From Lolium rigidum (Eukaryota > Streptophyta > Magnoliopsida > Poales > Poaceae), in contig NC_061508.1 of the NCBI RefSeq assembly GCF_022539505.1, forward strand, positions 34,032,256-34,096,255: a DNA stretch of 64,000 nucleotides, given 5' to 3'. A program made the position numbers and the translations under genes. Every line of letters starts with the position of its first letter. The first letter of the stretch is position 1. The notes under the pieces were generated by a model. It was not told the origin of the DNA and did no database searches. It saw only the letters and a list, made by a program, of their open reading frames with translations. Below are positions 5,135 through 57,045 of this stretch, one piece after another.

Positions 5135-5192
5135 GCTTTTCGAATAGGATGGATCCAGCGCTGGCTTTTCGAATAGGATGGATCCAGCGCTG
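5135..5192. repeat. Perfect 29-bp tandem duplication at the transposase start
   Basis: A unit starting GCTTTTCGAATAGGATGG occurs twice head to tail (5135-5163 and 5164-5192). It includes the likely splice acceptor (AATAG) and the start codon, so there are ATGs at 5149 and 5178. Because 29 is not a multiple of three, the first ATG is out of frame with the transposase. Confidence 0.9.
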
Positions 5193-8100
5193 GCTTTTCG
5201 GCTGGTGGTTAGGCTGGATTCTAGCTTTACGCGTGATTCTAAACGCTGTAAGACTGGGTTTAACTTCCCTGCGGTGGTTGCAACCACCATCTCGTTAACG
5301 GATTTCAAAGCTAACATCTACGATAACTACACCTGGAGCTCTCTCGATGCGGTTCATTTCGAATATTTCAACAGCTCGGAGGGAAGATTTGTTCCACTAA
5401 TTTCCGAAGACGATCCGGGATTTCTTTTTGCTTTGAATGCTTCTTGCCGGTTCGGTAAAATTCGTATCCATGTGGACAGGGGCCGGGCATCATCCGGTGC
5501 TGGGGCATCATCGGGTGGTCGGGCATCATGTCTCTCTACTGCCGCTGCCTCCGCTAATAGTGTGCGCCGTGGCGCTCCTTGTAGGTCCACGGCAGCACCA
5601 TCTGTCCCCGGTGCTAGTGGTAGCCGGATCGTTCGTACGGTCGATGTGGAGGACGATGCGGACATTGAGGATCAGCCTCCTCAAGATGATGAGGATGAGT
5701 TGATGTTTCCTGAATTGGTAGATCGATGCGATGAAGCGGGCAATGGAGGATCAATACATGGAAGATATGGCTTTTGGTGCCAGATTTGATGACACTGATG
5801 ATGAAGAGAAGAATGAGAATGATGACAGCCTCGTTTTAGCCGATTACGAAGGTGAAGACTTGCCAACAATTGAGTGGAACAGGGAGAAACCCCGACTTGT
5901 AGAAGGCACCGTGTTTCAAACGATGATGGACTGCCGTAATGCAATTACTACATATCACATTCTCACTAAGAATAATTTTGAGGTTATTAAAAGTGAGCCA
6001 GGTAGGTTCACAATTAAATGCCCATACCCAAGGTGTAGGTTTAGGCTGCATGCATCCACAATGCGCGAAGCGGCTTGGTTCGGGTACTACGCCAACCCAG
6101 TTGTGTATTTAGATCACGGTGTAAAATTTGTTATCTATTACTCGACATCCCTTATCATTATGTTTCAGATAAAGAAGAATAATGAGATCCATAGGTGTCC
6201 ACCTCTAGGGGAGAGCCGAGCTAAAAACAAAGCTAGCGAAGACTAGGTGGTTGGCGAGATGTAATCCTAGATTGGCTGAGAGAAGATCCTTCACTTGGTC
6301 CAACGAGCACTCGTAAAAAGGTGGTTGAGAAGTATAAAATGGAAGTACCTTACATGAGGATGTTCTATGCAAAGGAAATGGCTCTTGACAAGATCAATGG
6401 TCCATGGAATGAAAGCTTTCAGTTGCTTTACACTTTCAAAGCTGAAGTGGAGATGGCTAGTCCGAGCGAGTGTTGTAGCGATAGACAAGCATACGGTTTC
6501 CTACAAATTGAAAAGCGGGAAGGTAATGCACAAGGAATGTTTCAGAAGGGCTTTTGTTTGTTTCAAAGCTTGCTGGAAAGGCTTTTTGGACGGTTGCGTG
6601 GCCTTATTTGGCCGTGGATGCATCAGCTCTTCATGGCAGGTTTAAAGGACAGCTAGTTGTTGCTCATTGCGATTGATGGACATAATTGGATGTTCCCTGT
6701 TGCTTATGGGGTTTTGGAGGTTGAGTCACGGGAAAGTTGGACTTGGTTTCGCAGAATTTGCGCGACCTTATAGGTCATCCAACAGGACTTGTTATCCACA
6801 CGGACGCTTGCAAAGGTTTGGAGACTGCGGTAGAAGCAGTATTCCCCGGAGTGGAGCATAGGGAATGTATGCGACACTTGGTACGAGAATTTTACAAAGA
6901 ATTCAAGGGTAAAGTTTTTACTCGACAACCTATGGCCAGCTTCATACACATGCAGCTCTAGGAAGCATCTGTTTCATTTGGATGTGTTGTATAAACAAAA
7001 ACCTGGGGTGAAGGAGTACTTGGATGAACATCATGGTAGGGTGTGGTCAAGAAGCCAATTCAATGAAATTTGTAAGGTAGACTATGTAACAAGTAACCTT
7101 GCGGAGAGTTTCAATTCAAAGGTCAAGTCATCGAAAGGGCTTATGTTGTGGCAAATATTTGATAAGATTAGGCAGATGATCATGATAAAGATCGATCTGC
7201 GTCAAAGAATTGCATCCACAAATTATGTTGGCCATCTCATGCTCCCATCTTTGATTAAGTCTTTGCATGCCAGGGCAAAACAATTGAGGATGCGGTGCGT
7301 CAGAAAAGGAATGGAGGCTGAGGTAACCTACACTGACAAAGAAAACAGGCAGTGGAGGTATCCAGTGAGTTTGGTTGATAGGACATGCCATTGTAGGGGA
7401 TGGCAGATCCGTGGGATACCCTGCATACATTCATGAGTGTTATAGGGGGTGAAGATGGTGAAGTTGATCAGTATGTGTCAGAGTATTTCTCTGTTGCCAA
7501 ATTTAGGGCTGCATATGCTATGAATGTTCCTACCTTGTTGGGAAAAGACCAATGGATGAAAGTCGATCCAGGCTTCAAACTGTACTCTCCGAGTATTGAC
7601 TAGACCGGCGAGGTAGGCCGAGGAAGAATAGGATCGAGCTAGTGCAGAGGGTGGTGCACCGATTCGAAAACGTAAGTGCAAACGTTGTGGAATCCCTGGA
7701 CACATTGCTAGGCTTTGTAAAAATGGAGTTGACCCAGCTTTTGGAATGGAAGATCGAGCGGGAGCGAGAAAATGCGAGAGGAGAATGAAGCAGACAATTC
7801 AACTTGAGATTGAAGCAGCAGTTCAACATGAGGTGATTGAAGCGAGCAAATGCGAGAGGAGATTGAAGCGACGAGTTCAACATGAGGAGATTGAAGCAGC
7901 AAATGCAGAGGAGATTGAAGCAGCAGTTCAACATGAGGAGATTGAACCGATGGATCGAGAGCGGGGGGAACAGATGGATGTAGAGCTGCTTGAACAATTG
8001 GATGGAGAGCAGAGGGAACAGATGGATATAAAATGGCTTCAACCGATGAGTCTAGAGGAGAGGGAACAGTATAGTCGAGAATGCCACGAAAGTGGTAAGG

Positions 8101-8291
8101 CCATGATACAAGCTAACTTCGAAGAGTACATGGCAGAAGAAAAAGCACAAGCTTTGCGGAAGAAGAAGAACAAGAAAGAGGGCAAAAGGAAGGTAGACAC
8201 CGGTAATATCCCCGTTAGGGTTACCGGAGTAAGGTGGTGGCCCGGCGAGTCACACCAGGAGCAAGAGAAAGATTTTATTCTGAACAACTAA
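5178..8291 (+). pseudogene. MuDR-type (MURA) transposase, decayed
   Basis: Domain order matches plant MuDR transposases. 5178-5735 is an N-terminal PB1-like/acidic region (MDPALAFRLVVRLD...). About 5731-6243 is the MuDR N-terminal domain (FQTMMDCRNAITTYHI, CPYPRCRFRLHAS), interrupted by an apparent intron ending TTTCAG at 6170. 6320-7130 is the MULE transposase core with the DDE context VDASALHGRF, HTDACKGLETAVEAVFPGVE and TSNLAESFN. 7320-7436 is a SWIM zinc finger (CHCRGWQIRGIPCIH). About 7660-7720 is a CCHC knuckle (CKRCGIPGHIARLC). The last part is a Glu/Gln-rich tail with degenerate EEIEAA repeats ending at 8291. Frames change near 5735, 6250, 6460, 6590, 6655, 6965 and 7436. A short first exon (MDSI) may lie at 5037-5050. 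Not functional as it stands. Confidence 0.88.
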
Positions 8292-16685: not shown

Positions 16686-17081
16686 CTACTGCGCATAGTT
16701 GCAGAAGCCCTGGTTGCACTTGCCATCGCACTGGTTGGAGCAGCTGCCGCAGTTCTTCTTGTCGGAGAGCAGATCCACGCAGTGGCTGCCACAGCACGTC
16801 CGGCCGTGCTTGCAGGCCTTGTTGCAGCCGCCGCAGTGCTCGGCGCTAGCGACGATGTCCACGCACTGACCGCCGCAGCACGTCGTCCCGGCGCTCCCCG
16901 GCACGAGGCATGCTTCAGGCGACTTCTTCGAGCAATAGTTCGTAGGCAGGACGACAGTGCCACCAACAAGCAGGAAACGGCTCCTCCTCGCCGGGAGCGG
17001 GAGCGCCAGGCTAGCGCTGATGGCGGTGCCAGTGGCAGTGGCTAGCACCGTGAGGAGAAGCAGGAAGGCGGCGCGCGCCAT
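16686..17081 (-). CDS. STIG1-like secreted cysteine-rich protein
   Basis: Single exon, 131 residues, ATG at 17081, TAG at 16686. The N-terminus MARAAFLLLLTVLATA is a signal peptide with cleavage likely near residue 24, followed by a short variable region and a C-terminal block with 16 cysteines. The block has two similar modules (TCCGGQCVDI...CGGCNKAC and TCCGSHCVDL...CGSCSNQC) and ends CDGKCNQGFCNYAQ, the signature of the plant STIG1 family. Family members are extracellular and act in stigma exudate and pollen-tube signalling or in cell-wall/ROS responses; the role of this member is unknown. The longer upstream frame (to 17327) is 5' UTR plus transposon and is not used. A Harbinger-like element sits 108 bp upstream, directly in the TATA box. 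Confidence 0.9.
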   Translation of the reverse strand: MARAAFLLLLTVLATATGTAISASLALPLPARRSRFLLVGGTVVLPTNYCSKKSPEACLVPGSAGTTCCGGQCVDIVASAEHCGGCNKACKHGRTCCGSHCVDLLSDKKNCGSCSNQCDGKCNQGFCNYAQ

Positions 17082-17560
17082 TGCGAAGTGAATGAAAAAT
17101 GAGTAATCGGGATTTGGATCAGCCTCGAGATTATGGAGATAGCTGTAGGATTTGAGGGTGTGAAGTGAATGTCTCTGAATCGCCGCACTTAGAGCATCTC
17201 CAGTCGCGTCCCCCAAACCGTCCCCCAAACCGCGCCGGATCGAGCGTTTGGGGGACGTATTTCGTTCGTGCCGCGTTTGGGGGACGTCGCTCCCCAGCCG
17301 CGTCCCCCAAACGCCGCCCCCAAACATTTAAAATAATTTTTCTGGCATTTTTATTTCAATTTCCACAAACTAATACATAATTTGGAACGTGGTTTACACG
17401 AAAACACAGTTTGGAACATGGTTTTCCACAAACTAATACATAGTTTGAACCATGGTGGACACAAATATAAAATATTGCAAAGAAACTAAACCTAACTAGG
17501 CCGTGCATCGAAGGTTTCGTGTGTTCGCTGCTAAGAAAGAACACTCGAGGGCACACCCGA

Positions 17561-18169
17561 TCACCTAAAGCTGGAAAATCCGAGCGGGAGGATGGTGCCC
17601 TTGTTGGTTCTACCGATGAGGCGAACATGCGAAACCTCCGTGCACGTATTCGCTGCGAAGAAACAACACTCATTCAGTCGTCCTCCTCGTCGGTCTTTGT
17701 CGTCGTCCCCGTCGACGTGGTAGTCCCGGAGGCAGCGCCTCTCGTCGAAGACCTTGACGCTCATGTCCCTGTTGCCGAAGTAGGAGAACACGAGGATGAA
17801 GCCGGCTTCGAGGCTGTGGTGGCGCGCGAACTTCTCCCAGCCGATGTTGAGGTACATCTTGCCGCGCGCGTCGTAGATCGCCTTGACGATCCACCGGCGG
17901 TAGCCGCACGAATGCTCCCGCGGATGCATCGTGCGCGGGCGTACGCCGCCGACGTACTCGGCGAAGGAGTCCGGCAGCCTCTGGATGCCGCGCGGGTCGC
18001 CCTTGAGGACGTGGACGAACTCGAACAGGACGCCCGGCTCCACGTCCATCTCCGACGATGAAGACGACGGCGTGGGAGGCGACGGCGAGCGTTCAGCTGT
18101 GCCGCGGCCACGACCACGACCACGACCACGGCCGCGGCCGCGAGGTCCGCCTCCGCCTCTACCAGACAT
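17561..18169 (-). CDS. B3-type DNA-binding protein with GR-rich N-terminus (transposon cargo)
   Basis: 202 residues as read. Residues 1-25 are Gly/Arg repeats (MSGRGGGGPRGRGRGRGRG), likely to bind nucleic acid. Then comes a Ser/Pro/acidic linker. Residues about 48-150 fit the B3 fold: FVHVLKGD...LPDSFAEYV at the start, RRWIVKAIYDARGKMYL, IGWEKFARHHSLEAGFILVF, SYFGNRDMSVKVFDERRC. The conserved Trp, GW-x2-F, H-x-L-x2-G and F-D positions of plant B3 proteins are present. After VDGDDD a 1-base insertion relative to copy 2 replaces the ending TDEEDD-stop by about 40 unrelated residues. Otherwise the frame is intact, so a DNA-binding protein could still be made. Whether it is expressed or binds the element's own ends is unknown. 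Confidence 0.7.
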   Translation of the reverse strand: MSGRGGGGPRGRGRGRGRGRGRGTAERSPSPPTPSSSSSEMDVEPGVLFEFVHVLKGDPRGIQRLPDSFAEYVGGVRPRTMHPREHSCGYRRWIVKAIYDARGKMYLNIGWEKFARHHSLEAGFILVFSYFGNRDMSVKVFDERRCLRDYHVDGDDDKDRRGGRLNECCFFAANTCTEVSHVRLIGRTNKGTILPLGFSSFR

Positions 18170-18200
18170 AGCGTCGAGTCTTGTTGAGAGATGGTGGCGG

Positions 18201-18230
18201 CTAGGGTTTGGGAGAGAGGCGCTAGGGTTT
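18201..18230 (-). promoter_or_regulatory. Two telo-box-like motifs in the B3 gene leader, copy 1
   Basis: AAACCCTAG on the minus strand at 18222-18230 and 18201-18209, between the TATA box and the ATG. Telo-boxes are common in leaders of growth-related plant genes. Both are conserved in copy 2. Confidence 0.6.
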
Positions 18231-18259
18231 GTGTGTGAGAGGGACGATGAGAGGCGCCC

Positions 18260-18270
18260 CTTTTATAGGC
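18260..18270 (-). promoter_or_regulatory. TATA box of the transposon-borne B3 gene, copy 1
   Basis: Minus strand CCTATAAAAGG, about 95 bp upstream of the ATG at 18169, with a C/T-rich leader. Identical in copy 2. Confidence 0.7.
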
Positions 18271-18652
18271 CGGAGGGAGGCGGAGGAGCGGTGGCGCTCA
18301 TTAACGCCGGCACGCAGAGCTAGGCGCGACGGGACGCGTCCGCTGCGCCCTCTGCGGGAACCGCACCGTCGCTGCGCGCCAATAACTTCCGTCGCGAGGT
18401 AGGCGACGGTTAGGTTTAAATTAATTGTGCCGCTGACGGGTCGGCCCCGCCACTCCCCGCCTCGCTTTTCGTTGTGTCCGGCGTCCCCGGAGCGTCCCCT
18501 GTGGGACGGGGACGGGCTCGGGGCGCCGGACACCATATAGGGGCGCGCCGGACAAAAAAGGGCTTTGGGGGACGCGGCTGGAACGCTTTTTTTGTCCGGC
18601 GCGCCCCAAATCCCTTTGGGGGACGGTTTGGGGGACGCGACTGGAGATGCTC

Positions 18653-18659
18653 TTATATA
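18653..18659 (-). promoter_or_regulatory. Original TATA box of the STIG1-like gene, split from its gene by the transposon
   Basis: Minus strand TATATAA ends exactly at the element border. Its last three bases are the duplicated TAA target. Before insertion this box lay about 110 bp from the STIG1 ATG, a normal spacing; it is now 1.57 kb away. Confidence 0.7.
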
Positions 18660-19908
18660 GTCCAGAGGAGAGCGTGAAGGAAGCTAGCGGGGTTAGCTTT
18701 GCTCTCGATCTGCAGGTTGACTTCTGATTACTATATTCGAAAAGAGGTTGAGTAGAGCCTTCAAAACGATGCGAACAGGACGCTTTTGTCGGTCACGAAT
18801 ACGCAAGGATTTAAGGACACCATGTGTGTGTGGAGTCTAGAGTTCAGCAAGATTAATTGCAGGCTGATCAATCAACCAGTTCGTGGCAATGTTCAGAGCT
18901 GGGAATGGCTGCAACACTGTCGTAACCAGGATTCTGGCATGATTAGTATATTTAGGATTCAGTGAAGCAAATGATGGCCGCCTAACCCGGTGTTTTTAAA
19001 GGCAACTTCACCTACAGAAGCTATATCTACCATTCACCTGGTACTTTGAGATTGGTGAGGCTTCTGACATTTATCTAATATAAAACTAATAATTAAAATA
19101 TAAGTGAAACTTTTATGAAACTAAATTGACACATGGAAAATATTATGAAATATTCTGACAAAAAAGTGAAACTGCTGATGCCACCGCTGACATCACTTCG
19201 ATATGTTACACAAAAATACCGTGTTTCAGTTAAGTTTCAGATTGGTTGGTTTCATAATTTTGTGACTGGACTGAGTTAGTACATGGGTGACATCACAAAT
19301 GACATCACTGCTGTAGGTGTTCACTGTAAAAAGAGGTTTTCGTGGCCGTCTTCCCATGCTAGACGTGCTGCGCTACCAGCTAATTCATCAAATTAAATAA
19401 AGAGCATCTCCAAGAAGTAACATATTTGTAAAAAGCTGTCGTATACATCACTTTGGGCCAAAAAGCAGGCTTCAACGATTGATGCATATGCGAAAAAGAA
19501 GCAAAAAATAATTTACATCGCGATGAAACAAATGATGTCCGTCTTCCCATGCTAGACGTGTGCTACGCTACGAGAAGCAAATTCATGAAATAAAAATAAG
19601 GCGCGTACTAGGTCTGAACTACATACGCAACGTTAGGAAAAAACAAAACAAGTGAAGCGTGAACCTCCTACGTGGCTGCCCTAAATGCACGAGGCGGTGC
19701 CTTCCGTGCTAATTCACCCTTCTTATATTGCGTGAGAGCAGATAGTTGAGTTTGAAGCACACACATATGCATCGCTTCATTGTACTGAGACAGAGTGCGA
19801 AAGAAAAATAAAATGAAAGAGACATAATTGTAAGGCCGATGTCGTCTTGCTTAGTTAGTTTTAGTCACGGCGAAGCCTCGCGTGTTTACATGCATAGATG
19901 ATCGATTT
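18660..19908. other. Intergenic with MITE-like and duplicated segments
   Basis: Distal promoter region of the STIG1-like gene, then AT-rich sequence. GTCTTCCCATGCTAGACGTG occurs at about 19348 and again at about 19532 with matching flanks, a direct repeat about 185 bp apart. No gene seen. Confidence 0.45.
19011..19319. mobile_element. Possible MITE with CACCTACAG ends
   Basis: The left end CACCTACAGAAG and right end CTGCTGTAGGTG are inverted, with AT-rich non-coding DNA between. The TSD is unclear. It appears to interrupt one copy of the direct repeat described for 18660-19908. Confidence 0.35.
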
Positions 19909-26540: not shown

Positions 26541-26833
26541 ACCATGGGGTTTCAGCCGGTTAACGCCGGTACTCGCCGGTTAACGGCGTACGCCACGTGG
26601 CGGCTTGCATGACGTCGCGAGCCAATGGGCTCCCGGAAACACTTCTGCAACGGTCCGATTTTCCGTGGTGGAAGGGCGCCCAAGCGCGACGGACCGAAAA
26701 AATCGTCCTAGGACTTTGCCAGACGCAGTTTTGACAACAGAACCCATATCGTCGGGTTAGGCCCATAGGCGACGAAAAATACCCCTTAGCGGACGATTTT
26801 GGGACGTTGTCTATCAGAACTTTTCTTGTAGTG

Positions 26834-28963
26834 GTTACTGCATTGTAGTAATCCTCAATCCAGGTATCCGGTCTTTCGGTGCCATCGTAATGCTTCAGGT
26901 TTCCAGGTAGCTTGAGGTTCATCCTTGGCTTTGGTTCCTCTCGAATCATCCTGCCAAAGTACTTTGGGCCGATGTAATCAGTTTTGTATTCATTGAGGCG
27001 TTCCCGTGCGTCACGCGAGCCTTTGCGAGGGGATTTCGAGCGTGAGCGAGATCTCCGACCACCACCTCCGCCTCCACCTCCGTCTCCACCGCTAGGTGGT
27101 GGGGAAGGAGATCTGCGAGGGGGTCGGTACGACCTCTTGCTTCCGCCTTCGGATTCTCCTCGCCCTTCACGGTGCTGACTCCGGCTTCGGTGGCTGCCTT
27201 CACCGTGGTGCTGGCCGCCTTCCTCGTTCCGGCTTCGGCGGGGTTCCGGCTCGCGTTCCTCGTTCCGACTCCTCCTGGGCTCGGGCTCACGGTCATTGTT
27301 CCGGCTACGACGGGGTTCCGGCGTATGCTCCCTGCTCCTGTTCCTCTTAGGGGCCACGTTGTCGCGGATATTGATTCCACCTGGCCCATGGGGTCTGGTG
27401 TTTCTGGCTGGACTACGGCGACGAGGGAGTGGGGGACGCGGGTATCCGTTGGGTGGAGGTGACGGATTTCGGTACTTATCTTTACCAGTGTACCTTGCAT
27501 CCTTTCCCTTCTTTGGATCTGACGGAGGTGTCTTTGATGGCACGGGGATTGGATTTGGATGTTCTCTGGTTTTCCTTCTGCGCTCCGAAGATCCGGTGCG
27601 CGATTCATCATCACGATGGCGATTGTCGTAGGCGTCCTTCTGCGCGGTAGACATGCAAAGATCCGGGTTGGACTCCAACCTGCACGAAGTATCTGCCTTG
27701 CTCTGCTGCTTCATTGCTGAGGCAACAAGCGTTCGGACGTAGTCGATATCAATCTCCTCGTCCTTCTTTTTCAAGATCTCCGCAGCCTTTTTCATGTTAT
27801 CCTTTGGAGTTGCGAGTGGCTGTGATCTTGCGGGGAGCTACAGCTTCTCGCCTCATCCTATCAGCCTCCCGTTGAGCCTCGTTGATCTTGTCCTCCCAAT
27901 GCTTCCGGAGGTGCTTGACTTGTTCCAGTGATTCGTCAACCTGCCGTTCCCGTTTGAGGAAATTATCCACGAAGTGCGCGGCTTCTTTCCTCTCCTCCAG
28001 CATTGCTGCGGTGGTGGCGAATTTTTTGGCAGTTTCCAGCATCTCCTGTCTTTTGGCTTCTAGAGCCTCCGCATTTGCTGCGTCTTCATGAGTTATGGGT
28101 TTGTTGAGGATATCTGAGTGTGCGATTGCATCCATGCCTGCATGTTCAACCAGTTCTTCTGGGGACAAGACTTCCTTATGCGGTCGTTCCCGCGATAGCG
28201 GAGATCCTTCATGGGATGGTTGTGGGTCGGATTCAAAGTGCTCCTCTTCTGAATGTCGCTGATCCAGTGCCGCCAAGGTTGCGAGGACCTGCTTAGGCTG
28301 GGCGGATTCAACTTCAGCTTGATCATCGCCTCTGAACTCCTTCAGTTTGCGATCGAATTCCTCGGTATCCATGGAGGAGGTATCACCAGAGACTGGGCTG
28401 AGATTGCCCAGGATTGATTCTTCTCCGGCATCATCTTGCTGATCCGGTGCGCTGCTATCTCCGGCAACCTCATGCTGTTCCGGGGCGTCGCCGGTTCCGG
28501 CATCATTAACCTGCATGGGTCCTGCATCTTTCAGAGGAGGAGGGGTTCCAGCGGTATGTGCAAGGTAGTGCACGAAGTGACACCTTTGCTTTTCCAACAC
28601 CTGGGAGATACAGACGGATCTGCATTGGTCTTCCACCGTTGTTTCCTGCTCAGGGGCGGATTGAGTGGGTTTTGAATTTTCCAGATCCAAGGCGGAAACT
28701 TCCCTAGGGAGTTCCGGCCTCTCAGATCGGATCTTCGCGACTGCGTCCCGCTCAGCAGCGGTCGCGTCAGCGCTACTTACCAGAGCGTTTCCGTCGGAAT
28801 CGACGGTTTCGCCGATGAAGATGTGTATGCCGCCAACTGGGACGATGGAGAGCTTGGTGGGGTTGGTCCTAGCCGGAATCCAATACTCGTCCTGAGGGAC
28901 GATTGGGAAGTTGCCGGCGTAAAGGACACGCCCCACAGCAATGGTGTTGTCGTAGCTTCCCAT
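26834..28963 (-). pseudogene. Gypsy gag, copy A, cut by a CACTA insertion
   Basis: From the ATG at 28963 the minus strand reads MGSYDNTIAVGRVLYAGN, an acidic region, and a coiled-coil stretch (EERKEAAHFVDNFLKRERQ). A small deletion near 27810 shifts the frame, which resumes with AAEILKKKDEEIDIDYVRTL (27795 on), an Arg/Pro/Glu repeat region (EPEPRRSRN repeated) and the capsid start PRMNLKLPGNLKHYDGTERP. It breaks off at DYYNA, where the CACTA terminus starts (26833). Copy B (36561-40438) shows the uninterrupted sequence. The rest of the pol gene of copy A is absent. Confidence 0.8.
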
Positions 28964-29002
28964 GGCGGAACCCTCCCGGTTCCGGCCTCCAGACGTCGCT
29001 GG

Positions 29003-29018
29003 CCCACGGTGGGCGCCA
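29003..29018 (-). other. Primer-binding site of gypsy copy A
   Basis: Minus strand TGGCGCCCACCGTGGG, 2 bases from the LTR edge at 29021; TGGCGCC is the usual start of a gypsy PBS. Confidence 0.7.
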
Positions 29019-29020
29019 AC

Positions 29021-29559
29021 TGTCGTTGCCTATTCGACGGTACCTCGGAGGAGGGATCCTCACGAGGGGGGGAAGAAGTAGGGACCCATAGGGCGGAGTG
29101 CACACGTGACGGTGGTACGCGATTTACCCAGCTTCGGAACACCTGCACGATGGCAAGGCCTACTGCTGCTTGTCTGGAATTATCTGGCGCTTTCGCGTTG
29201 TTACAATGAGTTGTGGTTGTGCCTCTAGGGCTACCGGGATCCGGCTTATAAAGGCGCACGAATCTAGGGTTTACATGGAGAGTCCTAGCCGGATTACAGG
29301 TTGCCTAACTACGGTACAATATCTTACCGTGTACGTCAAGGATCCGCCTTCCATCTACGTCGTACTGGATCCGGGTTCCTCATGGGCCTTCACGGATCCG
29401 GCCTCCTTCGAAGGTCGGTTGGGATCCGGCTCCCTGATCCTGGACTGGACTTCATCCTTCATGATCAACAGCAACTGGACCGTCCGATGGGCCACATGCC
29501 ACATCACCATCTGTGGATCACCCGGGCTTACCGGATCTAGGCACTGTGGATGGTACACC
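29021..29559 (-). mobile_element. 5' LTR of gypsy copy A, truncated distally
   Basis: On the minus strand the LTR ends GGCAACGACA next to the PBS. It matches 40499-40949 along most of its length, but homology is lost after GGATGGTACACC at 29559, where copy B continues to its TGTTGTGGGT start. Contains ACTACGTCGTAC/CCGGATC-rich blocks and no gene. Confidence 0.7.
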
Positions 29560-30157: not shown

Positions 30158-30540
30158 GAGCATCTCCAGTCGCGTCCCCAAACCGTCCCCCAAAGGCATT
30201 TGGGGCGCGCTGGACAAAAAAAGCGTTCCAGCCGCGTCCCCCAAAGCCCTTTTTTGTCCGGCGCGCCCCCATTCGGTGTCCGGCGCCCCGAGCCCGGCCC
30301 CGTCCCACAGGGGACGCACCGGGGACGCCGGACACAACGAAAAGCGAGGCGGGGAGTGGCGGGGCCGACCCGTCGACGGCACAATTAATTTAAACCTAAC
30401 CGTCGCCTACCTCGCGACGGAAGTTGTTGGCGCGCAGCCGACGGTGCAGCTTCCCGCAGAGGGCGCAGCGACAGCGTCCCGTCGCGCCTAGCTCGCGTGC
30501 CGGCGTTAATGAGCGCCACCGCTCCTCCACCTCCCTCCGG

Positions 30541-30551
30541 CCTATAAAAGG
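30541..30551 (+). promoter_or_regulatory. TATA box of the transposon-borne B3 gene, copy 2
   Basis: CCTATAAAAGG, about 95 bp upstream of the ATG at 30641. Two AAACCCTAG telo-boxes follow at 30590-30598 and 30601-30609. Confidence 0.7.
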
Positions 30552-30640
30552 GGCGCCTCTCATCGTCCCTCTCACACACAAACCCTAGCGCCTCTCTCCC
30601 AAACCCTAGCCGCCACCATCTCTCAACAAGACTCGACGCT

Positions 30641-31135
30641 ATGTCTGGTAGAGGCGGACCTCGCGGCCGCGGCCGTGGTCGTGGTCGTGGTCGTGGCCGC
30701 GGCGTAGCTGAACGCTCGCCGTCGCCTTCCACGCCGCCGCCTTCATCATCGTCGGAGATGGACGTGGAGCCGGACGTCCTGTTCGGAGTTCGTCCACGTC
30801 CTCAGGGGCGACCCGCGCGGCATCCGAGAGGCTGCCGGACTCCTTCGCCGAGTACGTCGGCGGCGTACGCCCGCGCACGATGCATCTGCGGGAGCATTCG
30901 TGCGGCTACTGCCGGTGGATCGTCAAGGCGATCTACGACGCGCGCGGCAAGATGTACCTCAACATCGGCTGGGAGAAGTTCGCGCGCCACCACAGCCTCC
31001 AAGCCGGCTTCATCTTCGTGTTCTCCTACTTCGGCAACAGGGACATGAAGGTCAAGGTCTTCGACGAGAGGCGCTGCTCTCCGGGACTACCACGTCGACG
31101 GGGATGACGACAGCACCGACGAGGAGGACGACTGA
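30641..31135 (+). pseudogene. B3-type DNA-binding protein, copy 2, frameshifted
   Basis: Starts MSGRGGPRGRGRGRGRG, then the same Ser/Pro linker as copy 1. Relative to copy 1 there is an extra G in TTCGGAGTTCG (about 30783), an extra G in ATCCGAGAGG (about 30824) and an altered CTGCTCTCCGG (about 31075), so the B3 domain is only readable in pieces (for example 30880 on: CGYCRWIVKAIYDARGKMYL, GWEKFARHHSL). The natural C-terminus is preserved here: after VDGDDD it reads STDEEDD and a stop at 31133-31135. Confidence 0.75.
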
Positions 31136-31619
31136 ATGAGTGTTGTTTCTTCGCAGCGAATACGTGCACGGAGGTTTCTGCCTGTTCGCCTCATCGGTAG
31201 AACCAACAAGGGCACCATCCTCCCGCTGGATTTTCCAGTTTAGGTGACTGGGTGTGCCCTCGAGTGTTCTTTCTTAGCAGCGAATACACGAAACCTTCGA
31301 TGCACGGCCTAGTTAGGTTTAGTTTCTTTGCAATATTTTATATTTGTGTCCACCATGGTTCAAACTATGTATTAGTTTGTGGAAAACCATGTTCCAAACT
31401 GTGTTTTCGTGTAAACCACGTTCCAAATTATGTATTAGTTTGTGGAAATTGAAATAAAAATGCCAGAAAAATTATTTTAAATGTTTGGGGGCGGCGTTTG
31501 GGGGACGCGGCTGGGGAGCGACGTCTCCCAAACGCGGCACGAACGAAACACGTCCCCCAAACGCTCGATCCGGCGCGGTTTGGGGGACGGTTTGGGGGAC
31601 GCGACTGAAGATGCTCTCA

Positions 31620-36560: not shown

Positions 36561-38417
36561 CTATTTGGGGTCCATGTTGGCTCCGATCGAGACTTGCTTG
36601 GTAGCGTCATCTTCCTTGAAGTTGACTTTCTTGGTCTCTATCGCGGCCCTGAAGGAGTTTTTCTGTTCGGAGATCTGCTTCTTGGTGGTCTGCATCTCAG
36701 TCGGATCCACCGCGGCTCTGTAGCCTTTCAGCTCTTCTCCAGATATCACAGACTCTGCGAAGGCGGCTTCGCCCAACTCGCACTCATGAGCCTTTTTGTA
36801 GTCTCCGGATACGGTGATCATACCCTTAGGACCCGGAATCTTGAGCTTGTTGTAGATGTAGCACGCTCTTGCGTGGAACTTGTGGTAGGTGGGCCTGCCG
36901 AAGATGACGTAGTAGGAGCTCTTGAAGGGCACGACTTCAAACGTGATCTTTTCTTCGCGGAAATTGTGAACATCGCCGAAGGCCACAGGAACTGTGATGC
37001 TGCCGAGGGAGTTTGCCTTCTTACCCGGAACCACGCCATGAAACTCAGTGTTGCTGTGTTTGAGCTGTTCCTTGGTGAGGTTCATCCGTTCCAGAGTCTC
37101 CAGGTACATGATGTTCAAGCTGGCTCCACCATCCATCAGGCACTTGGAGAAGTCGTACCCGTCTATGCGGGGACTTACAACCAAGGCGTAGCATTCTTTT
37201 GGCACAATGGTAGGATGATCCTCCCTGTCAAATGTGCACGGAACTTCCGACCACCTGACATACTGCGGCACAGCCGGAACTGTGGCGTTCAGGATCCGGG
37301 TAGCTGACTTTGTAGCGCGGACTGTTGGGGTTCCGAGGAAAGTGTGGTAAGCCCCCACGCTCTTTTTCTCAAATGGGTTGGATTTACCTGCGGACCCTGC
37401 CTTGGGATCCGGCGAGTTATCATCCTCATCCATTGCCTCGGAACTGTCTTCCTCTTTGTCCTTGTTCTTGCCCTTGCCTCCTTTGCCGCGTGGGCGGTGC
37501 TTCCGGGCTCGCTTGTATCCTGCCTCCGGGTCGTTTTTAGGTCGTTGACCCACTTGCGAGTTGCGGTTGGTGTGAGTGGACTTCCCTGTAACCGGATCCG
37601 AGTGGGCCGGGCAGGGCATGTCTCTATACTCCTCGTAGGTTTGCGGGGCGCGGGATCCGCTAGCTGTGACCTCAGTGCCATGCTGCTGACCCCTGCCGGC
37701 TCCGCCTCCACGGCCGCGTCCTCTTCCGCCTCCTGATCCTCCGCGTTGGAATGCCATGGCGACCATCTCGCCGCCACTCTTCTGGTCATCAGGGTTTTTT
37801 CTTTTATGGCTGCTGCTGTTGCCGTTATCACGGTTCTTCTTTTGTTGATGTAGGGGGATTGCTGTAGCTGCGATATCACTGCCTGCGTCGTCATCGGCGG
37901 CAGTATGGTCACTGGCAATGGAGATCATTTCATCCAAAGTCGGTTTATTTGCGTTAGCCAAACAAGTGAGCTTATGCCTCGGCAATCCTCCTCTCTGCAG
38001 TCCACCAATGAAGGCGTACATGGCGGTGGTGTGGTCGACGTTTTCGCACTCGTTCCTGCATGCCAACCATCGTGTGAGGAAGTTTCTTGAGGATTCTCCC
38101 TTCTTCGGATACAAGCTTGTAAGTCGCTTGCCGTGGCGAGGTCTTTTGTAGGTGCCTCCGAAGTGTTTCTCGAAAGCGGTCTTCGGGTCAAACCAGCAAA
38201 AGATGGAGTTCTTCTCGAGGTCGCCGAGCCGGATCCGGGCTGGACCTACAAGGTACAACTGGAGCATGCGGCAGGCGATATTAGGGGTTCCTCCGGCGAA
38301 GGTTATTGCATTATAGTAATCCTCAATCCAGGTATCCGGCCTTTCGGTGCCATCATAATGCTTCAGGTTTCCGGGTAGCTTGAGGTTCATCCTTGGCTTT
38401 GGTTCCTCTCGAATCAT
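36561..38417 (-). CDS. Gypsy gag-protease (capsid, aspartic protease), copy B
   Basis: A 618-codon open frame. It opens with the capsid (PRMNLKLPGNLKHYDGTERP, DPKTAFEKHFGGTYKRPRHG, AFIGGLQRGG), then a Gly/Arg-rich nucleic-acid-binding stretch (GGSGGGRGRGRGGGAGRG). The retroviral-type protease follows: LMDGGASLNIMYLETL with DGGA in place of the commoner D(T/S)GA, and later YYVIFGRPTYHKFHARACY. It ends at a TAG (36561-36563) after ANMDPK, exactly where the polyprotein should run on into reverse transcriptase. CAG to TAG is the simplest explanation. The first part of gag is in another frame upstream (38418-40438). Confidence 0.85.
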   Translation of the reverse strand: MIREEPKPRMNLKLPGNLKHYDGTERPDTWIEDYYNAITFAGGTPNIACRMLQLYLVGPARIRLGDLEKNSIFCWFDPKTAFEKHFGGTYKRPRHGKRLTSLYPKKGESSRNFLTRWLACRNECENVDHTTAMYAFIGGLQRGGLPRHKLTCLANANKPTLDEMISIASDHTAADDDAGSDIAATAIPLHQQKKNRDNGNSSSHKRKNPDDQKSGGEMVAMAFQRGGSGGGRGRGRGGGAGRGQQHGTEVTASGSRAPQTYEEYRDMPCPAHSDPVTGKSTHTNRNSQVGQRPKNDPEAGYKRARKHRPRGKGGKGKNKDKEEDSSEAMDEDDNSPDPKAGSAGKSNPFEKKSVGAYHTFLGTPTVRATKSATRILNATVPAVPQYVRWSEVPCTFDREDHPTIVPKECYALVVSPRIDGYDFSKCLMDGGASLNIMYLETLERMNLTKEQLKHSNTEFHGVVPGKKANSLGSITVPVAFGDVHNFREEKITFEVVPFKSSYYVIFGRPTYHKFHARACYIYNKLKIPGPKGMITVSGDYKKAHECELGEAAFAESVISGEELKGYRAAVDPTEMQTTKKQISEQKNSFRAAIETKKVNFKEDDATKQVSIGANMDPK

Positions 38418-40438
38418 CCTGCCAAAGCACTTCGGACCGATGTAGTCGGTTCTGTATTCGTTGAAGCGTTCCCGCGCGTCACGCGAGCCGTGGCGGGGAG
38501 ACTGTGAGCGAGAGCGAGATCTTCGGCCGCCGCCTCCGCCTCCACCTCCGCCGCCACCGCTAGGTGGTGGTGAGGGAGACCTGCGAGGGGGCCGATCCGA
38601 CCTCTTGCTTCCGCCTTCAGATTCTCCCCGGCCCTCCCGGTGCTAGCTCCGGCTCCTGCGGCTGCCTTCGCCGTGGCGCTGGCTGCCCTGGTCGTTCCGG
38701 CTCCGGCGAGGTTCCGGATCGCGCTCGCCATCCCGGCTCCTCCTAGGCTCGGGTTCACGATCGTTGTTCTGGTTCCGGCGAGGTTCCGGCGTGCGCTCCC
38801 TGTTTCTGTTTCTTGAAGGCAGCACGTTGTCGCGGATAACAATTCCACCATGCCCATGGGGCCTGGTGTTTCCGGCTGGACTACGGCGGCGAGAGGGACG
38901 CGGGTAACCATTGGGCGGAGGAGAGGGGTTGCGGTACTTGTCCCGTCCAGAGTACATTGCATCCTTTCCCTTTCTTGGATCTGACGGTGGCGTCTTTGAT
39001 GGTACGGGGATCGGATTTGGGTGCCCTGGCTTTCCTTCTGCGTTCCGAAGATCCGGTTCGCGATTCGTCATCTCGATGGCGATTGTCGTGGGCGTCCTTC
39101 GCGCAGTGGAGACGCAATGCTCTGGGTTAGACTCCAATTTGCGCGAAGTGTCTGCCTTGCTCTGCTGCTTCACTGCTGAAGCGACGAGCGTGCGAACGTA
39201 GTCGATGTCGATCTCCTCGTTCTTTTTCTTCAAGATCTCTGCAGCCTTCGTCATATTGTCCTTTGGGGTTGCGAATGGCTGCTGCTCCGTTGGAGTTGCG
39301 AAGGTGATCCTGCGGGGAGCTATCAACTCACGCCGGGTCCTTTCGACCTCATGATGAGCTTCAACGATCTTGTCCTCCCAATGCTTTCGGAGTTCCTTGA
39401 CCTTTGCCAGTCCTTCGTCCACCTCCTGCTCGCGGCTGGATGAAGTCTTCCACAAAAACTGCGGCGTGCTTCCTTTCCTCCGAGCATGGCGGCTGCGGTG
39501 TCCTTAAACGTTTTGGCTGTGGCCAGCAGCTCCAGTCTCTTAGCTTCTAATGCTTCTACGTCTTCGGGAGTGATGGGTTTGTTAAGAATATCCGAGCGAT
39601 AAACCGCATCCATGCCTGCTTGTGCGACCATCTCTTCAGGCGACAGGAGGTCATCCGAGGATGAATCCTTGCGGGGTCACTCCCGCGACATTGGAGATCC
39701 CTGATGGGATGGCTGGGGGTCGGATTGGGTGCCTGCCTCTTCTGATCCGTGTTCTCCCAGCGCCGCTACAGTCGCAAGTACCTGCTTTGGCGGGCGGAGT
39801 CAACTTCAGGCTGATCACCGTATCCATATTCCTTCACCTTGCGATCGAACTCTTCAGTGTCCATGGATTGGGTATCTCCGGAAATTGGGCTTAGATTTCC
39901 CAAAATCGACTCTTCAGCCGGAGTTCCGCTTTCTCCGAGCAGCCTCTTGCCGATCCGGAGCAGCGTTGTTTTCCGGGGCCTCGACCTGCTCGGGACCAGC
40001 TCCGGCTTCTTGAGGGGCGGTTCCGGCGGTATGGGCCAAGAAGTGCACAAAGTGACACCTTTGCTTTTCTAACACCTGGGAGACCCAAGCGGATCTGCAT
40101 TGGTCTTCCACCTTTATTTCCTGCTCAGGGGCGGATTGGCTGGGGATTGATTTTTTCAGATCTAAGGCGGAATCTTCGCTAGGAAGTTCCTGCGTCTCGG
40201 ATCGGATCTTCGCGACTGCGTCCTGCTCGGCGGCGGTCGCGTCGGCGCTACTTACCGGTGGGTTTCCGTCGGAATCTACGGTTTCCCGATGAAGATGTGT
40301 ATGCCGCCAGCCGGGACGATGGAGAGCTTGACGGGGTCGGTTTTAGCCGGAATCCGAGCACTCATCCGGAGGGACGATCGGCAGATTTCCGGCGTAAAGG
40401 ACACGCCCCACAGCGATGGTGTCGTCGTAGCTTCCCAT
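38418..40438 (-). pseudogene. Gypsy gag N-terminal region, copy B
   Basis: Collinear with copy A. The ATG (MGSYD) is at 40438, followed by an acidic segment, a coiled coil (KELRKHWEDKIVEAHHEVER), AAEILKKKNEEIDIDYVRTL and Arg/Pro/Glu repeats (EPEPRRSRD). Several frameshifts occur (about 39450, 39130, 38640). Together with 36561-38417 this is the gag of one element. Confidence 0.75.
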
Positions 40439-54714: not shown

Positions 54715-57045
54715 ACTGGCGGAGCTTGGTTTTGGCAAAACCGGGCCATGGCCCGCCCAGCCCTGGAGCGATTTTTTTTTATACCTATGCTGCATGTGTA
54801 AAGCCCATTAGCGGATTAGCCCACCACTTAGCTAGTCCAGTTCACATGAGAGGCCGAGAACGAGAAGGGAGAAGCACTTCGTTTCCGTTTCCAGACCGTC
54901 GTCATGTTCGTGAGCGGAGCGGAGCATCCCCAAAATTCCACATCCATGGAGGCATGGCCATGGCGCCAGTTCCGGTGACCGACACACCAAGAGGCGAAAA
55001 TAGCAGCGGCTGGACTGTTTATCCCAGCGCCCGACGACCGTCCCGATCATCAGGCAGAGCGACGGCAAGCTAACTAGGACGGCCAGGCCCCAAGCCACCA
55101 ACCCTAAGCTGAGGCAGCAGGCGCAAACGACAGGCCGGTAGGCGGCCAGACCGCCAGAGAGCTAGAGCGATCCGGCACAAGGTCCCCGCGCTTCTCAGAT
55201 TTTGCTTGCTTGCATTTTTGAGCTGATTGCCTGATTGGAGCGCACAGCACAACCGCACATCAGCACATGTGACGCTGCAGTCTGAAGGTAATTCACCTTC
55301 CCAATTCTCAAATCTCAATGCTTAATTCTCTCTCAGTACCAATTTTCATATAACAAGTTAAGAACTAAAGGTATTGTTTAACAATTTGTAATTGGTATTT
55401 GGTAACATGAATAATTTATAATTCGTTCCATTGTTGTCACTACTGTCTACTGATTGATGTTATAAATTGCAATTTAGGTATCTACCGGCTACCATGAGCA
55501 AAGCTAGTCTGAGAAGAATAGATCAGGTTTTTAATAGAAAAAGAGATGATGCAAATGAAATTGAGGAAGACCAGTCAGTACCAGCAGATCCACCACCCTT
55601 ACTCTTACTTGAATTACAGTAGCAGATTCCACACAATCAACATGAAGATCAGTCAAATGAAGTTGTTACGTTTCAAGGTATCGAACACTTGCAGCGAGAC
55701 CCGGGATTGCGCCCACAGATTTGGCAATATCCACCAGACCAGAGAGATAATGTGCGGCGGGCGTATTTGATGTTGGGTCCTATGCAACCCCATCTGCAGA
55801 TCTATGAATCTTCAGGTGAAAAAGGGCATAAACGGCGCTTCAAGTACAATTGGTTTGGTCAATTTCCCTCATGGCTTGAGTACTCGCAGGAAAAGCACCG
55901 TGCTTATTGTTTGTTTTGCTTTGTCTATGGAAAAAAGGAAAATACACGAGGTGGCTCTCATGTGTTTACGGTCAATGGGTTTGATAGTTGGAAGAGAGTG
56001 AATTCTGGAAAACATTGTGCATTTTTAACACATGTAGGTTCTGGACCATGCTCATCACACCAAAATGCAGTCGCAGATTGTCAAGCCTTGATGAATCAAA
56101 CATGCCACATTGAAAATGTGATAGCAGTGAAGGACAAGGAGAAAGTAGAAAGAAACCGTTTGCGGCTGGAAGTCTCAATTGCAGCTGTTAAGTGGCTCAC
56201 GTTGCAAGCTTGTGCATTTAGAGGACATGATGAGAGGCCTCAGTCAAGGAACAGAGGAAACTTTCTTGAAATAGTGGATCTTCTTGCAGAATTCAACCCG
56301 GAGATCGCCAAAGTGGTGAGGGGGAATGCTCCGTATAATTCAAAATACACATCACTAGAAATTCAGAAAGAGATCTTGAGTATGTTTGCATGTAAAATCA
56401 GGAAGCATATCCGGGATGAAATCGGGGATTCTAAGTTCTCTATTTTAGTGGATGAGACATGTGATGTGGAAAAGAGAGAGCAAATGGCGCTAGTTCTAAG
56501 ATTTGTTGATAAAGCTGGTATCTTGCAAGAGAGGTTCTTTGACTTGATACATGTAGCAAACACGAAATCTTTGACACTTAAAGATGAATTGAGCTCTGTT
56601 TTATCAAAGCATGGTTTTGATATTCAGAATCTTCGAGGACAAGGTTATGACGGGGCCAGCAACATGAGAGGTGACTTGAATGGACTGCAAGCTCTTTTCC
56701 TCCAAGAATGCCCATATGCTTATTATGTCCATCGTTATGCCCACCGCTTGCAACTTGCTCTAGTTGATGCTTCCAAAGAAGTTATTTCAGTTTCTCAATT
56801 TTTCCAAAAATTGATCTCTATCATTAACACCGTTGACTCCTCTTCAAAGTGCCATGACGAGCTCCATCAAGCCCAACTAGATGAACTAGAAATCGCAATT
56901 GCTAATGCTAGCGTTGAGACAGGTCAAGGGGCAAACCAAATCCGCTCTCTTAAGCGACCAGGAGACACAAAGTGCAGAATCTCTTAAATAGAGGCTAGGG
57001 AAAATCTAATACTATCATTCTGAAACACATGTTTAATTATTGTAA
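54715..57045 (+). mobile_element. hAT-superfamily transposon, 3' end lost
   Basis: The left part (TGGCGGAGCTTGGTTTTGGC, GGGCCATGGCCCGCCCAGCC) resembles the start of grass hAT elements with TTF-type transposases. The transposase gene follows, but its C-terminal dimerisation region and the right TIR are missing, so the element is truncated near 57000. Confidence 0.6.
55494..56987 (+). pseudogene. hAT transposase (TTF-type zinc finger, DUF4371), truncated
   Basis: ATG at 55494 (MSKASLRRIDQVFNRKRDDA), after a 5' leader with a probable intron ending ATTTAG at 55476. An in-frame TAG at 55620-55622 interrupts residue 43; the frame then runs on to 56987. The TTF/BED-like zinc region is FKYNWFGQFPSWLEYS and AYCLFCFVYGK. 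Next come the DUF4371 core (NRGNFLEIVDLLAEFNP, YTSLEIQKEIL) and the catalytic-Asp contexts ILVDETCDVEKREQ and GYDGASNMRG, then YVHRYAHRLQLALVDAS. The last recognisable block is RSLKRPGDTK, where an active protein would continue for about 200 residues to the hAT dimerisation domain. Dead copy. Confidence 0.88.

Follow-up and report, generated by a model that had tools for sequence, protein, structure and literature searches.

A Harbinger-like transposon carrying a B3-domain gene with its own promoter in Lolium rigidum

The analyzed sequence (hereafter the window) is a 64-kb stretch of DNA from Lolium rigidum. It contains two copies of an element bounded by terminal inverted repeats (TIRs) and target site duplications (TSDs), with a B3-domain gene inside. 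The features are, in window coordinates:

17192..18652, minus strand (strand of the gene): copy 1 of the B3-carrying Harbinger-like element, 1461 bp, delimited by its TIRs, its alignment to copy 2 and its flanks
30158..31616, plus strand (strand of the gene): copy 2, 96% identical over its length, a pseudogene with frameshifts, TSD TCA
17189..17191, no strand: TSD TTA of copy 1, low-coordinate side
18653..18655, no strand: TSD TTA of copy 1, high-coordinate side
17192..17229, no strand: TIR of copy 1, 38 bp, perfect
18615..18652, no strand: TIR of copy 1, 38 bp, perfect
17208..17311, no strand: subterminal array of five exact GTCCCCCAAA (17208+, 17220+, 17247-, 17276-, 17302+)
18564..18636, no strand: subterminal array of three exact GTCCCCCAAA (18564-, 18615-, 18627-)
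18414..18536, minus strand: non-coding 5′ subterminal stretch common to the element (positions 117-239, gene orientation) and the start of protein P0176
18261..18267, minus strand: TATA box TATAAAA, at the same element position in copy 2
18223..18230, minus strand: telo-box AAACCCTA in the leader, at the same element position in copy 2
18202..18209, minus strand: second telo-box AAACCCTA in the leader, at the same element position in copy 2
17561..18169, minus strand: open reading frame (ORF) of the B3 gene, 202 aa, ATG at 18169, at the same element position in copy 2

The TIRs of copy 1 match over 38 bp, the first mismatch appearing at position 39, and its borders read ctta, then GAGCATCTCC...GGAGATGCTC, then ttata, with TTA on both sides. 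The 1461-bp unit, its coordinates, its TIRs of about 38 bp and its TTA duplication, all proposed by an earlier note made from the sequence alone, are therefore correct for copy 1, as judged from flanks and alignment. Copy 2 lies in the opposite orientation, has slightly damaged TIRs and carries TCA at each border, so that the TTA (or TAA) duplication holds for copy 1 and is replaced by TCA (or TGA) in copy 2. Since flanks and duplications differ between the two copies, their insertions were independent and each of them generated a 3-bp TSD. Both arrays beside the ends consist of a 10-bp motif, GTCCCCCAAA or its complement, present in eight exact occurrences in copy 1 and six in copy 2, whereas 300 first-order Markov simulations gave a mean of 0.007 occurrences per element. 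All 14 exact matches found in the window are located inside the two elements.

The gene has the organization announced by the earlier note, i.e. a TATA box, a leader with two telo-boxes and a GR-rich start, all on the minus strand at the coordinates given above. The 202-aa ORF encodes successively the GR-rich start, a Ser-rich linker, a B3 match (residues 63-143) and, after about residue 157, a frameshifted tail. Pfam identifies the B3 domain (PF02362) with an E-value of 2.3e-9 (37.5 bits, above the cut-off of 30.1), which confirms the B3 assignment and excludes the possibility, raised in the same note, that a profile search would give no B3 match. Two further Pfam families were found under their cut-offs, both on the GR-rich start, to which the SNF2 and ribosomal-protein matches of the window protein are also attributable. 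Among solved structures, the window protein matches by sequence At1g16640 (1yel, E 3.1e-5) and VRN1 (4i1k, E 0.0062). An AlphaFold2 model was built for the Lolium relative P0002, rather than for the window protein itself, from an alignment of 28 relatives. Its pLDDT is at least 90 at 86 of the 168 residues, in the B3 part, and its first Foldseek matches are VRN1, At1g16640, TEM1 and other B3 domains. The GR-rich start and the serine-rich linker of this model (residues 1-42, nearly all with a pLDDT below 50) are read as disordered, and the acidic tail also has a low score. By both sequence and fold, REM-type B3 proteins (At1g16640, VRN1) are thus the closest solved relatives of the element protein, which differs from them by its GR-rich start, its acidic tail and its location on a transposon. 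The proposal that the gene is complete stands for the promoter and the B3 domain but not for the 202-aa ORF, which is not that of the original protein: in copy 1, the acidic tail has been replaced owing to a 1-bp indel near codon 157, the rest of the frame being intact. The original tail, STDEEDD, is kept in copy 2, whose coding part has undergone three 1-bp insertions, and in many Lolium proteins.

The assignment of the element to a superfamily relies on several features. CACTA elements also generate 3-bp duplications but their ends start with CAC. Membership in this group was ruled out because the ends of the present element start with GAG. Both copies have the 3-bp TSD of PIF/Harbinger elements, and the 5′ part of the element matches P0176 (see below), a protein carrying the PF04827 transposase model. 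The label Harbinger-like used in the earlier note is supported by these two features. Other features are atypical: one of the two duplications is TCA, and neither a transposase nor the Myb-like ORF1 of autonomous PIF/Harbinger elements was found inside, the gene present being a B3 gene. Furthermore, the TIRs (38 bp) are longer than the 14-25 bp given for PIF/Harbinger elements in the available parts of two reports (PMC4565680, PMC2213677). The element ends, which read GAGCATCTCC, do not follow the motif G(N)5GTT. However, in the accessible text of the Medicago survey where it appears (PMC2213677), this motif serves as a filter; as it does not define the superfamily, we kept the label. A search for a DDE transposase (PF04827) inside the 1461-bp unit found none. 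In being a TIR element that carries coding sequence and no transposase, the element resembles Pack-TYPE elements.

P0176, from locus QYE76_054104 of Lolium multiflorum, starts with MVSGAPSPSPSHRGRSG, identical to the translation of the element from position 117, with the same ATG and the same frame. Seventeen identical residues are followed by weaker similarity up to position 239 (E 1e-9), and no match at E≤0.01 was found between P0176 and the element beyond positions 117-239. The ungapped score of this match is 100, compared to 41 for the best of 100 simulated elements; over tiles of the window, P0176 scores 100 and 89 at the two elements and at most 46 elsewhere. The set of transposases examined comprised the best 120 of 728 matches, i.e. 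119 besides P0087 (discussed below). Peptides from the 5′ non-coding part of the element were found in one of these 119 listed transposases, P0176 itself, and those from the 3′ region in none of the 119. The remaining listed transposases gave only weak low-complexity rows (the best being P0242, E 5.9e-5, compared to a best E of 3.7e-4 in the reversed control). This shared sequence suggests that a transposase-bearing Harbinger element with the same 5′ end may be the partner that moves the B3 element in trans. It should be emphasized that P0176 is one gene model, picked for matching, and that the match could equally come from a short related element located in front of an unrelated transposase.

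The window protein was searched against 5.8 billion proteins; scoring was limited to the 7986 candidates with the most words in common, and other grasses may therefore be missed. This search retrieved 99 clusters at E≤1e-3, the largest with 127 members, in which all species-named matches are from Lolium multiflorum or L. perenne and usually bear the names "TF-B3 domain-containing" or "Os03g0212300-like". Summed over clusters, the relatives amount to 370 members, 183 of which belong to two diverged clusters, P0084 and P0089. These two clusters from Lolium multiflorum (56 and 127 members, respectively) represent a diverged lineage with the same GR-B3-acidic arrangement, which outnumbers the lineage of the window. 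A profile search yielded 113 clusters and thereby reached more distant relatives, with identities as low as about 25-40%, including one that bears the name Aegilops tauschii. Many relatives have a full ORF. By simple counts among 104 proteins, 63 have a GR-rich start and 60 an acidic end, several models beginning downstream of the GR-rich part. The large family found in Lolium excludes the possibility, considered in the earlier note, that the gene exists only as these two copies.

Do these relatives derive from the dispersal of the ORF alone or of the whole unit? A tblastn comparison of 143 B3-family proteins with the non-coding parts of the element was dominated by low-complexity matches to GR-rich sequence (59 rows compared to 43 in the reversed control); given this noise, a count of exact 7-residue peptides was adopted in its place. 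Such peptides from the 3′ region after the stop codon were found in 11 of the 143 proteins, and from the 5′ non-coding region in one (P0029), compared to 0 of 143 with reversed DNA in both cases. Alignments extending into the non-coding parts were obtained for P0029, P0023, P0026, P0042 and P0083. As 12 of the 143 relatives carry peptides from these parts, it is the whole unit that was dispersed and not the ORF alone. Taken together, the two insertions with TSDs, the Lolium family and the gene models that include non-coding parts uphold the view that a B3 gene and its promoter form a mobile unit. Outside plants, searches of viral contigs gave no match to the TIR pattern, six pattern stretches but no relative with the B3 alignment, and nothing with the transposase P0145; in bacterial and archaeal contigs, P0002 gave 251 pattern stretches and no relative.

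Aligned over 1470 columns, the two window copies are separated by 38 substitutions and 20 gap columns, and their divergence is lower in the 3′ part (1.8%) than in the 5′ part (3.1%) or the coding part (3.0%). Their longest stretch without any difference covers 240 columns (1140-1379, gene orientation), mostly AT-rich 3′ sequence, whereas they are about 3% different elsewhere; this stretch perhaps contains fewer methylated CpG sites. The coding changes comprise one silent and 13 replacement changes (for 110.7 silent and 351.3 replacement sites). The probability of at least 13 replacements among 14 changes is 0.12 under neutrality and 4e-5 under a dN/dS of 0.2. The coding changes fit neutrality, and the window copies show no constraint since their insertion.

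Selection over a longer period was examined on the relatives. From the 143 proteins, 39 were set aside as short, chimeric or gapped; the other 104, which have a B3 domain that is nearly full and lack chimeric extensions, were aligned by MAFFT. The resulting tree is roughly ladder-shaped for Lolium and has many weak nodes. The test was carried out on a Lolium-type clade of 81 proteins, and the remaining 23 served to define the site classes. By parsimony, conserved, middle and variable B3 sites underwent 32, 63 and 91 changes on internal branches and 123, 165 and 183 on terminal branches. When the class labels are permuted among sites, p is 0.0004 for internal branches and 0.0078 for internal versus terminal branches (the latter becoming 0.005 and 0.016 when terminal branches longer than 0.12 or 0.08, respectively, are removed). 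On terminal branches alone, conserved sites are also depleted (p 0.0088; 0.053 and 0.065 without the long branches). Conserved B3 sites are therefore spared to a greater extent by older changes than by recent changes, as expected if the spreading lineages kept the B3 core while single copies decay more freely; this test uses proteins only, parsimony, a weakly resolved tree and databases that favour intact frames. When the coding stretch of the window was randomly mutated, 70% of 200 runs had acquired a stop by the point at which identity reached 65%. This too favours maintenance, subject to the same bias towards intact frames. The earlier note had taken a dN/dS of 1 across the family as the sign of a decaying passenger: this value fits the two window copies, but in the 81 relatives constraint is seen at the protein level and is stronger on older branches.

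The reading that we favour, with an even chance of being right, is that of a non-autonomous PIF/Harbinger-like transposon, moved in trans, in which the one gene found, REM-like and of the B3 type, has its own promoter and encodes a protein that aids the element. The transposase of the partner element would act on its ends, and the B3 protein would bind the GTCCCCCAAA arrays beside both of them. Two kinds of help can be envisaged by analogy: (i) the B3 protein may position the transposase at the ends, as does ORF1 in other Harbinger elements, or (ii) it may protect the element from silencing, in the manner of VANC in VANDAL elements. According to the available part of one report, PIF/Harbinger transposition requires a transposase and ORF1, and the zebrafish Harbinger ORF1 binds inverted repeats (PMC2836001). 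In an excerpt of another, VANC leads to a loss of DNA methylation in VANDAL elements and its targets often form repeats (PMC5735166). The VANDAL/VANC system is a possible parallel, as it also pairs a protein encoded by the element with target motifs that are repeated there (PMC5735166, in part), but it involves another element and another protein, and both binding and anti-silencing are putative here. Encoded between two arrays of one motif, a B3 protein could act in either way. In our reading it probably serves the element by binding its motif-rich ends, one of the two options proposed in the earlier note. Lineages with a working B3 gene would go on spreading, every new insertion later decaying. 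The weakest point of such a helper is that its activity in trans alone would give no protection to the gene copy from which it is made; its maintenance would thus require a preference for cis action, local action or a benefit to the host.

The best surviving alternative, improbable but to be taken seriously, is a Pack-type passenger: a host B3 gene and its promoter would have been captured once between Harbinger ends and multiplied as cargo of no use to the element. The restriction of the P0176 match to positions 117-239, as if the gene had been set behind a Harbinger 5′ end, and the apparently neutral evolution of the two window copies agree with such a capture, and rice and maize have Pack-TYPE elements that belong to Harbinger-PIF (PMC8903248, in part). 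In the accessible text of that report, Pack-PIFs are likewise non-autonomous TIR elements that carry gene sequence and are moved by the transposase of another element (PMC8903248). However, one quoted Pack-PIF family contains gene pieces of only 163 and 58 bp (PMC8903248, same part), whereas the gene found here is not a fragment: it has a promoter, a full domain and many relatives, many of them with a full ORF, and shows signs of constraint at the protein level. It is this constraint on B3 core sites on the older branches of the Lolium family that led us to rate a helper above a pure passenger. It is not decisive, since purifying selection can likewise act on genes that CACTA elements have captured in wheat (PMC4290129, in part); constraint alone is therefore no proof of a role for the element. 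These wheat captures resemble the present case, as whole or partial genes are carried by DNA transposons and some are transcribed and under purifying selection, with 140 CACTA capture events and 145 captured gene copies from 121 families on chromosome 3B; they concern another superfamily, and the term "B3 domain" is absent from the text (PMC4290129).

A second alternative, which we consider rather unlikely, is that an autonomous element with two genes encodes the B3 protein, as its ORF1, together with a transposase, the window copies being internally deleted derivatives. It would agree with the need for both ORF1 and transposase in PIF/Harbinger transposition (PMC2836001, in part) and with P0087 from locus QYE76_044222 of Lolium multiflorum, a single model that combines a B3 fragment (E 4.9e-4, below the Pfam cut-off) with PF04827 (E 3.6e-20), the B3 part coming first and on the same strand as the transposase. 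We rejected P0087 as proof of such an element. According to Pfam, B3 pieces are also fused in P0078 (with a copia-type gag just under cut-off and a zinc knuckle) and in P0097 (with zf-RVT), and such junctions with retroelement proteins indicate that B3 fusions arise by chance. Moreover, the transposase of P0087 is only 47% identical to P0176, the B3 family occurs in none of the 119 other transposases among the best 120 of 728 matches, and, in a comparison of low power that excludes P0087, all 18 Lolium multiflorum transposase tags lie at least 22 locus-tag numbers from the 80 B3 tags. Compared with Ping/Pong-type PIF/Harbinger elements, the present element shares the 3-bp TSD, TIRs and an element-encoded DNA-binding protein, but it has a B3 instead of a Myb-like protein, no transposase in the unit and TIRs of 38 bp instead of 14-25 bp.

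It is still less likely that we are dealing with a host REM family kept by host selection, in which transposition merely relocates genes. The constraint on older branches agrees with such a family, and the accessible text of the Triticum urartu genome paper reports an amplification of the REM subfamily of B3 genes in T. urartu, Aegilops tauschii and bread wheat, with a speculation on vernalization (PMC6784869). However, constraint on older branches together with decay of single insertions is the pattern of a transposon lineage. Finally, ordinary duplication of a gene sitting in a repeat, with incidental inverted ends, is practically untenable, being contradicted by the separate TSDs, the ends shared by both copies, their unrelated flanks and their motif arrays.

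Pack-TYPE Harbinger elements were already known, but a B3 gene as cargo of such an element appears to be new: among the papers listed, no title or start of abstract describes one. This covers few subscription journals and does not prove that none is published. The start of the TIR, used as a text string, retrieved papers that, among the matches listed and by title, do not deal with transposons. The "B3 domain" in the accessible part of PMC7602945 is the VAL2 gene in a list, and PMC9129072, as far as its available text goes, concerns a domesticated Harbinger gene and not a B3 cargo. Such transposons may be one route by which grasses multiply B3 regulatory genes. A mobile B3 gene would provide an alternative and testable cause for the REM-type amplification in wheat and its relatives, the evidence presented here coming from Lolium and not from wheat copies. 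A broader proposal, possible but doubtful, is that the B3 protein is the transposon's own DNA-binding helper that reads the end motifs, that its spread is a main cause both of the REM-type amplification in wheat relatives and of the abundance of annotated B3 genes in Lolium, and that many B3 "regulators" of grasses are transposon genes. If this were true, (i) a large group of the "B3 transcription factors" annotated in grasses would be transposon-borne, (ii) Harbinger elements would gain a second type of DNA-binding helper besides the Myb-like ORF1, and (iii) units made of a promoter and a regulator would land at new places.

Copy 1 is located directly upstream of a STIG1-like gene (PF04885, E 2.5e-18; ATG at 17081, minus strand; window 17081-17191 and 18653-18662) that has the same direction as the B3 gene. 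On the minus strand, its TSD forms the last letters of CTATATAA, about 108 bp upstream of the STIG1-like ATG, and, as judged from this arrangement, the insertion probably split the TATA box of the STIG1-like gene from its start. The element end (window 17192-17327) lengthens the STIG1 frame upstream, giving a 213-aa ORF that starts inside the element. Other traces of mobile elements were observed in the window. Reading frames at 5148-8291, one of which encodes a SWIM zinc finger (E 6.7e-6), are probably a Mutator-like transposase in pieces, and the 454-codon open frame with DUF4371 (E 1.6e-55) at 55623-56987 is presumably part of a hAT-like element. Long minus-strand frames at 26560-29029 and 36561-39503, alike in translation, Arg/Ser/Pro-rich and with a strong AT skew, are probably two copies of one retroelement.
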